The notes under the pieces: generated by a model
Told to the model about the DNA's origin: nothing
Database searches by the model: none
The model's input: only the letters and a program-made list of their open reading frames with translations
Position numbers and translations under genes: made by a program
Shown: in pieces, positions 5,820-12,450 of the stretch
Position numbering within the stretch: the stretch's first letter is position 1
Layout: the number at the start of each line of letters is the position of its first letter
Assembly (NCBI RefSeq): GCF_013149785.1
Contig: NZ_JABEZU010000001.1
Coordinates: forward strand, 1,488,001 to 1,552,000
Direction: 5' to 3'
From: Isoptericola halotolerans
GTDB lineage: Bacteria; Actinomycetota; Actinomycetes; Actinomycetales; Cellulomonadaceae
DNA length: 64,000 nt

Positions 5820-6179
5820 GTGAGCAGTCACGTTAGACTGGCCAGGACCGGGTCACGCGACCAGGGTCCGACGCGCCCGCACCATTCCACGCCCACGTCG
5901 GCGGGACCGGTGCGCACCTGCGTCGGATGCCGGGACCGTGACCTGCGGTCGGACCTCCTGCGGCTGGTGCTCGCGGCGGCCGACGGCGTACCCGCGGGGG
6001 AACCTCGGGTGGTCGTGGACGTCCGTGGGAGCCTGTCGGGGCGAGGGGCCTGGATCCATCCGGTCCTCGCCTGCCTGGATCTCGCCGTCCGGCGGCGAGC
6101 CGTGCCGCGCGCTCTGCGTGCTGCCGGCCCGCTCGACCTGACGGCGGTCCGGGCATATCTGGAGCAGCAGGACCGTTGA
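5820..6179 (+). CDS. ylxR: YlxR family RNA-binding protein
   Basis: This small basic protein of the YlxR/DUF448 family carries the signature [19 protein letters not shown] and later GRGAWIHP, with cysteines in CVGC. Family members bind RNA and sit between nusA and infB; some affect RNase P activity, which cannot be inferred here. The start is uncertain. GTG 5820 follows nusA closely, but a TAGACT box at 5834-5839 lies inside that version, and GTG 5910, five nt before the RTCVGC codons, would give a shorter protein typical of the family. The stop at 6177-6179 is firm. Confidence 0.85.
5834..5839 (+). promoter_or_regulatory. Possible internal -10 box before ylxR/infB
   Basis: TAGACT lies just after nusA. 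If used, ylxR would be read from GTG 5910 and infB would have its own promoter within the operon. No clear -35 is seen. Confidence 0.35.
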
Positions 6180-6186
6180 ACGACCT

Positions 6187-6207
6187 GGCGGCACCGTCGG
6201 TGCCGCC
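6187..6207 (+). terminator. Perfect 9-bp hairpin after ylxR
   Basis: GGCGGCACC and GGTGCCGCC flank a 3-nt GTC loop, 7 nt after the ylxR stop. No T-run follows. It could be a weak terminator or attenuator, or protect the upstream 3' end; it is the first element of the unusual infB leader. Confidence 0.45.
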
Positions 6208-6279
6208 CGGCTGACACGACCGGACGCCATCGTCCGGCCGCACCACGCGTACATCGACAAGGAAGCGGGTCAGAAGCCG

Positions 6280-6294
6280 ATGGGCACCCGATGA
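6280..6294 (+). CDS. Leader mini-ORF 1 (MGTR) before infB
   Basis: ATG GGC ACC CGA TGA encodes four residues. Its stop overlaps the start of the next mini-ORF by the bases ATGA. A purine-rich AAGGAAG lies about 14 nt upstream of the ATG, rather far for a ribosome-binding site. Translation is inferred only from the arrangement. Confidence 0.4.
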   Translation: MGTR

Positions 6295-6308
6295 GTCCCC
6301 AGCGATGA
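6291..6308 (+). CDS. Leader mini-ORF 2 (MSPQR) before infB
   Basis: ATG AGT CCC CAG CGA TGA encodes five residues. It starts inside the stop of mini-ORF 1 and its own stop overlaps the start of mini-ORF 3, both by ATGA. Like mini-ORF 1 it ends in the arginine codon CGA. Confidence 0.4.
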   Translation: MSPQR

Positions 6309-6322
6309 GTACTCGGTACTAA
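6305..6322 (+). CDS. Leader mini-ORF 3 (MSTRY) before infB
   Basis: ATG AGT ACT CGG TAC TAA encodes five residues and ends the chain. Its stop is 43 nt before the infB GTG and 11 nt before the hairpin that covers the infB ribosome-binding site, so a ribosome terminating here would stand next to that hairpin. Confidence 0.4.
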
Positions 6323-6333
6323 CGACGGTCCTG

Positions 6334-6363
6334 CCTGTTCTCGGTGGGGCCGAGACAGGAGAG
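6334..6363 (+). promoter_or_regulatory. Hairpin sequestering part of the infB ribosome-binding site
   Basis: CCTGT-T-CTCGG (6334-6344) pairs with CCGAGACAGG (6350-6359): 10 bp with one bulged T and a TGGGG loop. The infB Shine-Dalgarno sequence AGGAGAG runs from 6357 to 6363, so its first three bases are in the stem. This is a plausible on/off element for infB translation. Confidence 0.5.
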
Positions 6364-6365
6364 AT

Positions 6366-9251
6366 GTGGCGAAGATCCGCGTCCACGAGCTGGCGAAGCA
6401 GCTCGGAGTGGAGAGCAAGACCTTGATGGCCGAGCTGAAGGCGTCGGGCGAGTTCGTCCGATCGGCCTCCTCGACCCTCGAGGCACCGGTCGAGCGCACG
6501 ATGCGCGACAAGTTCCAGGGCGGCGCCGGCGGTGAGCAGGGTGCGAAGAGCGCTCCGGCCGCGGCGAAGAAGCCCGCAGCGCCCAAGCCGGGCGCTCGGA
6601 ACGCGCCGGCGAAGCCTGCCCCGGCCGAGCCCGCGGCCGCACCGGCCGATGAGCCCGCGGCGGCACAGCCCGCGCCCGCACCCGAGGCCACGCCTCGGGC
6701 GGAAGCCGAGCCCGCGGCCGAGGCGTCGAAGGCGGCCGCACCTCGCTCGGGTGGTGCGCCCAAGCCGGGTGCCGCCCCGAAGCCGGGTGCTGCGCCCAAG
6801 CCTGCGGCTGCGCCCAAGCCTGCTGCGGGGCCGAAGCCGGGCTCCAAGCCCGCGGGCCAGCAGCGGTCCGGTGGCCGCGGTGGCAGCCCTCGACCGGGCA
6901 ACAACCCCTATGCCTCGCAGCAGGGCATGCAGCGCTCGGGCGGTCCCCGCCCGGGCAACAACCCGTACGCGTCGCAGCAGGGTATGCAGCGCCCGCAGCG
7001 GGGCGAGTCCGGACCGGCCGCCCAGGGCGAGCGTCCTGGTGGCCCCCGCCCGGGTGGCCCGCGCCCCGCGGCTCCGCGCCCCGGCGGTCCGCGCCCCAAC
7101 CCGGGCATGATGCCCGGCAAGACGAGCATGCCCCGCCCGGGCGAGCGTCCGGCCGCGGGCGGTCGCGGTGGTGGCGGCGGTCGTGGTCGTGGCGGTCAGG
7201 GCGGCGGTCCCGGTGGCCCCGGTGGTGCCGGTGCGGCCCCCGGTGGTCGCGGAGGCGGCATGCGTCCTGGCGGCGGCGGTGGCTTCCGCGGTCGCGGTGG
7301 TGCCGGTCGCGGCAGCACGCAGGGTGCGTTCGGTCGTGCCGGCGGTCGTCCCGTCCGGGGACGGAAGTCGAAGCGGGCGAAGCGCCAGGAGTTCGAGGCG
7401 ATGCAGGCTCCGTCGCTCGGTGGCGTCAGCGTCCCGCGCGGCAACGGTCAGACGGTCGTCCGCCTGCGCCACGGCGCCTCGCTGAACGACTTCGCCGACA
7501 AGATCGACGCGAACCCTGCGTCGCTCGTCACCGTGCTGTTCCACCTCGGTGAGATGGCGACGGCGACGCAGTCCCTCGACGAGGACACCTTCGCGACGCT
7601 GGGCGTCGAGCTCGGCTACCGGATCGAGATGGTCTCCGCCGAGGAGGAGGACCGCGAGCTGCTCGGGGCCTTCGACATCGACCTCGAGGCCGAGGAGGCC
7701 GCCGAGGACGACGAGGACCTGTTCCCGCGTCCGCCGGTCGTGACCGTCATGGGTCACGTCGACCACGGTAAGACCAAGCTGCTCGACGCCATCCGTTCCA
7801 CCGATGTGGTGGCCGGTGAAGCGGGCGGGATCACCCAGCACATCGGTGCCTACCAGGTCCACACCGAGCACGAGGGTGCGGACCGTGCCGTGACGTTCAT
7901 CGACACGCCGGGCCACGAGGCGTTCACCGCCATGCGTGCCCGTGGTGCCAAGGTCACGGACATCGCGATCCTCGTGGTGGCCGCGGACGACGGCGTGATG
8001 CCGCAGACGATCGAGGCGCTGAACCACGCCCAGGCGGCCGATGTGCCGATCGTGGTCGCGGTCAACAAGGTGGACAAGGAGGGCGCGAACCCGGACAAGA
8101 TCCGTCAGCAGCTCACCGAGTACAACCTGGTGGCCGAGGAGTACGGCGGCGAGACGATGTTCGTCGACGTCTCCGCCCTGCGGCGTCAGGGCATCGACGC
8201 GTTGCTGGAGGCCGTGCTGCTCACGGCGGACGCGGCGCTCGACCTGCGGGCCAACCCTGAGAAGGACGCCCGCGGTGTCGCGATCGAGGCACACCTCGAC
8301 AAGGGCCGCGGCCCGGTGGCCACGGTGCTGGTGCAGTCCGGCACGCTGAGCGTCGGTGACGCGATCGTCGCGGGCACGGCGCACGGGCGCGTGCGCGCCA
8401 TGTTCGACGAGCACGGCGAGTCGGTCCGCGAGGCGGGCCCGGCGCGCCCGGTCCTGGTGCTGGGGCTCGCCTCGGTGCCGGGTGCCGGGGACACCTTCCT
8501 GGTGGCTCCGGACGAGCGGACCGGTCGGCAGATCGCCGAGAAGCGCGAGGCGGCCGAGCGTGCTGCCCTCCTGGCGAAGCGTCGCAAGCGCATCAGCCTC
8601 GAGGACTTCACCAAGGCGCTGGAGCAGGGCAAGGTCGAGACCCTCAACCTGGTCCTCAAGGGCGACGTCTCCGGTGCCGTGGAGGCACTCGAGGACGCGC
8701 TGCTCAAGATCGACGTGGGCGACGAGGTCGACCTGCGGGTCATCCACCGCGGTGTCGGCGACATCACGCAGAACGACGTGAACCTGGCCACGGTGGACAA
8801 CGCCGTGATCATCGGCTTCAACGTCCGTTACGGCGAGCGTGTCGAGGACCTGGCGGAGCGCGAGGGCGTGGACGTCAAGTTCTACTCGGTCATCTACCAG
8901 GCGATCGACGACATCGAGGCGGCCCTCAAGGGCATGCTCAAGCCGGAGTTCGAGGAGGCGAAGCTCGGCAGCGCCGAGATCCGCCAGGTCTTCCGTTCCT
9001 CCAAGTTCGGCAACATCGCCGGTTCGATCGTCCGGTCCGGCACCATCCGACGGAACTCCAAGGCGCGCGTCCTGCGCGACGGCAAGGTCGTCGGGGACAA
9101 CCTCACGGTGGAGTCGCTGCGACGCGAGAAGGATGACGTCACCGAGGTCCGCGAGGGCTTCGAGTGCGGTATCGGTCTCGGGTCGTTCAACGACGTCACC
9201 GAGGGTGACATCATCGAGACCTTCGAGATGCGCGAGATCCCGCGCGACTGA
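6366..9251 (+). CDS. infB: Translation initiation factor IF-2
   Basis: This 961-residue GTPase delivers initiator tRNA to the 30S subunit. Residues 1-52 form the IF2 N-terminal domain ([19 protein letters not shown]). A long Ala/Pro-rich then Arg/Gly/Pro-rich linker (about 60-335) contains two copies of the 15-residue block [15 protein letters not shown], 20 residues apart. The G domain has GHVDHGKT at 463-470, DTPGHEAF, and NKVD at 567-570, followed by the IF2 beta-barrels and the C-terminal fMet-tRNA-binding domain. The GTG at 6366 has AGGAGAG just upstream. The leader carries mini-ORFs and a hairpin that may control expression. Confidence 0.97.
6890..7010 (+). repeat. Tandem 20-codon repeat inside infB
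   Basis: Two adjacent copies of a 60-nt unit encode [15 protein letters not shown] plus a variable tail. The copies differ mainly at third positions (for example CCCTATGCC against CCGTACGCG), so the duplication is old and kept at protein level. It lies in the disordered linker. Confidence 0.8.
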
Positions 9252-12303: not shown

Positions 12304-12348
12304 ACTACCACCATCGCGCTGCCGGACCGTCGTCCGGTCCTCGGTAGT
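12304..12348 (+). promoter_or_regulatory. Branched stem in the pnp leader
   Basis: ACTACC (12304-12309) can pair with GGTAGT (12343-12348), enclosing a perfect hairpin CCGGAC-CGTC-GTCCGG (12322-12337). In Streptomyces the rpsO-pnp spacer forms RNase III-cleaved hairpins that control pnp; the same role here is inferred from position. Confidence 0.45.
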
Positions 12349-12450
12349 GGCTCCCCGAACCGCCCGGTCCGTCCGGTGCGCGGCTCCGTGGGCCTCGATC
12401 GAAGACCGTCGCACGGAGGGGCGGCGCCTTCGAGAATCAGGAGGGCACCC

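Follow-up and report, generated by a model that had tools for sequence, protein, structure and literature searches.

Why should infB, the gene for translation initiation factor 2 (IF2), be preceded in an actinomycete by a string of open reading frames (ORFs) of only a few codons each? The question is raised by a stretch of 64,000 nucleotides (nt) from Isoptericola halotolerans (contig NZ_JABEZU010000001.1, positions 1,488,001 to 1,552,000), hereafter the window, whose own numbering is used below and on whose forward strand all the features of this locus lie. Here infB (6366..9251, GTG start, 961 amino acids, identified by IF2_N profile matches in its own genome) follows three mini-ORFs: ORF1 (ATG GGC ACC CGA TGA; ATGGGCACCCGATGA; 4 codons, 6280..6294), ORF2 (ATG AGT CCC CAG CGA TGA; ATGAGTCCCCAGCGATGA; 5 codons, 6291..6308) and ORF3 (ATG AGT ACT CGG TAC TAA; ATGAGTACTCGGTACTAA; 5 codons, 6305..6322). 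Direct reading of the sequence bears out the initial annotation, which had described these ORFs at 6280-6322 as joined by ATGA overlaps (6291-6294 and 6305-6308), and no other chain of at least two ATGA-linked ORFs of up to 8 codons exists on either strand of the window. The answer favored here, to which we assign an even chance, is that the infB leader of the Actinomycetes constitutes a translation attenuator that reads the efficiency of re-initiation, hence IF2 activity, and thereby limits IF2 synthesis.

The chain is a feature of the class rather than of this genome. Among 148 genomes across the class Actinomycetes an infB match was obtained in 136, from which 130 leaders were fetched and 6 left out, and a further 80 named infB loci brought the collection to 210 leaders. 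At least three linked mini-ORFs (RTGA or TRATG links, up to 12 codons, within the last 140 nt) are present in 207/210, a scoring in which ATG, GTG and TTG were all allowed as starts, so that some of the longer chains include chance members. With NTGA links only, the chain is found in 120/130 leaders as against 37/2600 dinucleotide shuffles; it occurs in none of 2116 real sequence segments flanking the named loci, and in 0/28 infB loci of the phylum outside the class (the 30 best-scoring rather than a random sample, two of them without a hit, with starts placed by tblastn). Closer to home, exactly three linked ORFs are seen in all 31 leaders of a kin set comprising the window, 29 relatives found with the window's leader, and L272 (29 of the 31 being distinct). 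The spaced pattern ATGA-11-ATGA-14-ATGA, which the window itself fails because its ORF1 begins ATGG, occurs 89 times in the 148 genomes, 77 times just upstream of infB and 12 times elsewhere by manual sorting against the infB positions, whereas the reversed control pattern occurs 3 times. The ATGAG repeats that the initial annotation placed before infB in other actinobacteria are indeed present in leaders of the class, and relatives devoid of the chain or its downstream structure, which would have spoken against its proposal, were not what the comparison returned: both are conserved across the class. In four leaders (L064, L183, L130 and L142) one link is TAATG or TGATG in place of ATGA, so another type of overlap is used in some leaders.

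What is conserved within the chain was assessed in a non-redundant set of 84 of the 210 leaders, 82 of which have a chain of three and served for codon counts. The spacing between consecutive RTGA motifs is 2 modulo 3 in 166 of 173 cases, though taking the values 8, 11, 14, 17, 20 and 23; ORF1 has 4 codons in 65/82, ORF2 5 codons in 69/82, and ORF3 5 or 6 codons in 67/82. The encoded peptides vary, with 34 distinct versions of ORF1, 53 of ORF2 and 80 of ORF3 in the 82 leaders, and ORF2 starts with GTG in nine of them with the overlap preserved. Among relatives of the same genus, L280 carries three extra bases within ORF3, while in L293 the TAA is lost and ORF3 is closed by a TGA one codon later; in the AT-rich leaders L076-L079 three linked ORFs are still present despite very different letters. 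Taken together, the frame rule, the start swaps, the variable peptides and the kept links point to selection on the coupling of stop to start, and neither on a peptide nor on a motif. The overlapping stops and starts are those expected of termination-reinitiation coupling between the mini-ORFs. Sensing through the mini-ORF peptides was considered and rejected on account of their variability, and across the 82 leaders there is neither a conserved codon nor a conserved nascent peptide at which a ribosome could stall.

The same observations bear on the notion that an RNA-binding protein recognizes the CGATGAG units, which would merely resemble ORFs. ATGAG is frequent and the units are repeated, as such targets would be, yet a protein-binding repeat would not account for a 2-modulo-3 spacing maintained across several lengths, for ATG-to-GTG swaps that keep the overlap, or for the same linkage spelled with different letters in L076-L079. 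The frame rule and the start swaps rule this out as the principal explanation, and it is judged extremely improbable.

How ribosomes might enter the chain is suggested by the Shine-Dalgarno (SD) affinities upstream of each start, computed as anti-SD duplexes in the 81 leaders of the folding set (which omits L171 and L191, whose chains have two members, and L166, whose spacer is short). A duplex of -4 kcal/mol or better precedes ORF1 in 55/81 leaders, ORF2 in 2/81 and ORF3 in none; the corresponding 15-mers of the window give -5.7, -2.6 and -2.2 kcal/mol, and a purine-rich SD-like stretch (AGGAAGCGGG, 6260..6269) precedes ORF1. By comparison, the infB SD averages -8.0 kcal/mol and control 15-mers -2.5. 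Since SD-like duplexes are nearly absent before both ORF2 and ORF3, we infer that these are entered mainly by re-initiation. The idea that GAG within ATGAG might serve the following ORF as a weak SD was entertained and found unsupported: the 15-mer duplex is stronger than its own shuffles in 17/81 leaders for ORF2, i.e., weaker than shuffles overall, and in 38/81 for ORF3, i.e., equal to them. In length the chain roughly equals one or two ribosome footprints and would therefore be traversed by single ribosomes, one after another. The proposal of the initial annotation that the leader senses initiation is still the best reading, with the amendment that, as ORF2 and ORF3 lack an SD, the chain would gauge re-initiation more than initiation in general.

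Behind the last stop lies a spacer (from 6323 to infB; 43 nt in the window, and a median of 43 nt across 120 leaders) in which competing helices make up a predicted bistable switch. In helix H1 the segment just past the last stop, often GACGGTCCG, pairs with the middle segment of the spacer, often CCGGACC; the latter also matches codons 3-6 of infB, often GGTCCGGGT, with which it forms the alternative helix H2 in most clades, while in the window's clade its alternative partner is the SD. Covariation was evaluated in an alignment (A2) of 44 of the 84 leaders, hand-picked for alignability, outside which stand the leaders guessed to be mycobacterium-like or micromonospora-like, the AT-rich ones and some others. 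Across these 44, pairing amounts to 88.6% for H1, which shows 13 double-change cells and scores 0.187 for covariation (0.126 when shuffled); H2, which RNAalifold returned unprompted, is 95.2% paired, with 6 double-change cells and a score of 0.164 against 0.124. The changing H2 pair involves the third base of an arginine codon, which reads CGG opposite a leader C in 28 leaders, CGC opposite G in 4 and CGT opposite A in 1, with 4 wobble pairs and 7 unpaired. Examples from individual leaders are the pairings of ACACGGACC with GGTCCGTGT in L179, GACGCGGACC with GGTCCGCGTC in L088, and CCCTGAGC with GCTCAGGG in L165. Over the folding set, the pairing of a spacer with its own infB start beats that of shuffled spacers in 68/81 leaders, of synonymous recodings in 65/81 and of other species' starts in 65/81. 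Synonymous codons at the beginning of a gene may thus be under selection to pair with that gene's own leader.

The window is an exception in this regard. Its infB reads AAG ATC CGC, H2 is absent, and the pairing is no better than any of 100 shuffles; instead, helix H3 takes the SD. The predicted open form has H1, whose 5' arm (6326..6335) starts 3 nt past the last stop and whose 3' arm lies at 6343..6352, with nine H1 pairs giving -15.1 kcal/mol; the closed form has H3, whose 5' arm (6334..6344) overlaps both H1 arms and whose 3' arm (6350..6359) covers the AGG of the SD site AGGAGAG (6357..6363), at an equal -15.2 kcal/mol. H3 is the 10-base-pair (bp) hairpin, with one unpaired T and beginning 11 nt past the last stop, that the initial annotation had seen reaching the first bases of the SD; it is present as described, but the helix competing with it, whose 5' arm stands just past the last stop, had been missed. 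Likewise, SD masking holds for the window's clade and some others, such as L168, L172 and L175, whose SDs are masked by 10-11 bp helices of their own, and not for most families, where codons 3-6 are the partner. As a general rule it was discarded, being confined to some clades and yielding little net change when the SD and start are scored alone. Thus the partner used for masking differs among leaders, within an architecture that is kept.

The consequence of a ribosome at the last stop was simulated by making nucleotides unavailable: the spacer and infB start were folded both free and with the first 11 nt past the stop blocked, as they would be under a ribosome whose A site holds that stop. 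In the 81 leaders, opening positions -15 to +16 costs on average 14.5 kcal/mol in the free state and 18.2 kcal/mol upon covering, a rise of 3.7 kcal/mol, as compared with -1.0 in spacers shuffled above the SD, and the change exceeds the shuffle mean in 71/81 (p 6e-13). The blocked state is tighter than that of shuffles in 74/81, the free state being ordinary (44/81, p 0.36). Covering 8 to 14 nt yields +4.1 to +3.1, and covering 4 nt only +1.0. The effect holds in cluster averages (20/23 and 9/10; at the coarsest cut 4/4, p 0.125) and among the 29 distinct leaders of the kin set (+3.0 against -1.5, 26/29), and in the window the cost goes from 15.7 to 18.7 kcal/mol. Thus the sign that the initial annotation had left open is given a direction by predicted folding, with a ribosome at the last stop closing the infB start. 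The mutually exclusive folds expected of an attenuator, one of which closes the ribosome-binding site, are found by prediction and covariation, with exceptions in 12/81 leaders.

Several observations weigh against this reading and temper it. First, the SD-like affinity before ORF1 beats shuffles of its own 15-mer in only 42/81 leaders, and no better than shuffling means that it is a matter of base composition. Second, part of the closing effect is non-specific, since controls in which H1 or the encoded protein is preserved also close the start to a degree: synonymous infB recoding gives +1.3, other species' starts +2.1 and an H1-keeping spacer shuffle +1.5, with a leader's own change exceeding these nulls in 63/81, 59/81 and 56/81, respectively. 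Third, the 12 exceptional leaders change by less than -0.5 kcal/mol, in the opposite direction, and scoring the SD and start codon alone leaves a change of only +0.4, with 22 up and 18 down, although still above the shuffle mean in 56/81. Fourth, many free leaders are closed in their equilibrium fold, so that switching would require H1 to be the first helix formed; its 5' arm pairs early in 79/81 leaders, but also in 79% of shuffles. Finally, for each helix two of the five covariation measures (pairs with a double change, and further types) lie within shuffles. Individual families depart from the pattern as well: L149, mycobacterium-like by guess, keeps the chain with a GTG-started ORF2 but shows a reversed predicted effect (-7.5), and L166 and L167 retain three linked mini-ORFs but have a spacer of just some 20 nt before infB and lack the hairpin, a family in which the switch seems to have been lost and the chain kept. 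L151, also mycobacterium-like by guess, has the chain, a GTG-started ORF2 and a weak predicted effect (+0.9).

The direction of the predicted effect also bears on the possibility that the chain is a ribosome-delivery device, which would hold ribosomes near infB and pass them on by re-initiation, raising IF2, with the hairpin merely shortening the distance. Precedent comes from mycobacteria, where two accounts present RTGA-coupled small ORFs as over-represented before genes and propose that they deliver ribosomes (PMC4633059; PMC12548453, the latter reviewing translational coupling). The small ORFs of that first report resemble the infB chain in their RTGA overlaps and in a linkage conserved more than the peptide; they differ in that a small ORF is coupled directly to the main gene, while the three of the infB leader are linked only among themselves, with infB outside the coupling; the accessible text does not mention infB (PMC4633059). 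There is neither overlap with nor proximity to infB, the last stop lying 43 nt away (median); moreover, infB has a strong SD of its own (-8.0 on average), and its start is predicted to close when a ribosome occupies the last stop. Delivery is hence considered unlikely.

In the attenuator as envisaged here, a ribosome would enter at ORF1, terminate, and re-initiate at the starts of ORF2 and then ORF3, both without an SD. It would then stand on the last stop, a few nt 5' of the 5' arm of H1, and cover that arm; H1 could not form, and the middle segment would pair with infB codons 3-6 in most clades or, in the window, directly or via its neighbors with the SD, closing the infB start. When IF2 is scarce re-initiation would fail, the arm would be free, H1 would form first during transcription, and infB would be translated from its strong SD. 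The net outcome would be negative feedback, high IF2 closing infB and low IF2 opening it, because finishing ORF3 takes one start at ORF1 and two SD-less re-initiations expected to demand IF2; as the starts are in series, the response may be steep. In its strongest form this would amount to a molecular counter, in which serial SD-less re-initiation on three obligatory mini-ORFs is converted into a steep occupancy at one stop, an RNA switch and homeostatic control of infB, a version that we put forward only tentatively. If correct, an entire bacterial class would carry within a single mRNA a measurement of its capacity for initiation, and IF2 feedback could be tested directly in Streptomyces with simple reporters.

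That IF2 is the quantity read is suggested by work in Escherichia coli, where IF2 is needed for efficient re-initiation, a step that may call for it more strongly than de novo initiation does (PMC2268962). The same switch might instead respond to ribosome recycling, initiation factor 3 (IF3), the supply of formylmethionyl-tRNA (fMet-tRNA) or the level of free ribosomes: the same source has excess IF3 lowering re-initiation and the formylated initiator tRNA as a requirement, which would act on the same step. On the other side stand the identity of the regulated gene, infB itself, and the documented IF2 dependence of re-initiation, and neither point is decisive; a signal other than IF2 is regarded as rather improbable. 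Control at the level of transcription, by translated mini-ORFs shielding the leader from Rho or shaping premature termination, has a parallel in translated upstream ORFs (uORFs) of Mycobacterium tuberculosis linked to conditional premature termination, as stated in a review (PMC11550727). It is deemed very unlikely here, given that it is the SD or the codons of infB that take part in the competing helices, and that no U-tract follows the hairpin in the leaders inspected.

Among known systems, the attenuator proposed for infB is closest to leader-ORF attenuators such as those of the ermC type and the uORF of E. coli topAI, with which it shares short leader ORFs and predicted alternative folds at the main start, and would share the decisive role of ribosome position. 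Unlike these, it has three linked ORFs and no conserved peptide, and its read-out would be arrival after serial re-initiation rather than stalling at a codon, with arrival predicted to close the gene. To our knowledge, ribosome-controlled RNA switches read elongation or stalling; a class-wide leader that measures re-initiation would, if confirmed, represent a new input for them. The infB leader is placed with the leader-ORF attenuators, as one whose principle of sensing would be novel. Autoregulation of IF3 via the rare start codon of infC (PMC5472188) is alike in that an initiation factor limits its own translation; that mechanism, though, works by discrimination against a non-canonical start, whereas the infB genes of the window and of the leaders inspected begin with GTG and have no such start, and sensing is proposed to reside in a chain distinct from the gene. 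The rimP-leader of rimP-nusA-infB operons is likewise a regulatory RNA of the same operon, but is a transcription terminator before rimP for which the accessible text of PMC2965389 describes no mini-ORFs. Among the matches listed by full-text literature searches, judged by titles and abstract openings, none concerned mini-ORFs or a switch before actinobacterial infB, and nothing came up on how the IF2 level is set in actinomycetes, within a coverage of few subscription journals and no supplements; these starts may thus already be recorded in profiling tables.

The surrounding locus has the gene order nusA-ylxR-infB, taking nusA and ylxR to be what their translations suggest. Among the named records listed, the N-terminus of IF2 is matched best by two Isoptericola species, at 86 and 90%. 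Between the ylxR stop (6177-6179) and the chain are two plain strong hairpins at 6187-6207 and about 6220-6237, without a U-tract and not members of the chain, although the stretch singled out by the initial annotation includes them; the segment 200-95 nt upstream of infB, which often includes the end of ylxR, folds below -20 kcal/mol in 81/84 leaders, a figure without a shuffle control. Searches with the covariance models of Rfam 15 at their curated thresholds gave no match in the window's leader, and none was seen in the leaders of eight relatives; at E values up to 1 the leader has two matches of 19.1 and 12.6 bits (thresholds 55 and 71), both outside the chain. The window's only match at the curated thresholds lies elsewhere, an Actino-pnp RNA (RF01688) at 12333-12410 with 51.4 bits.

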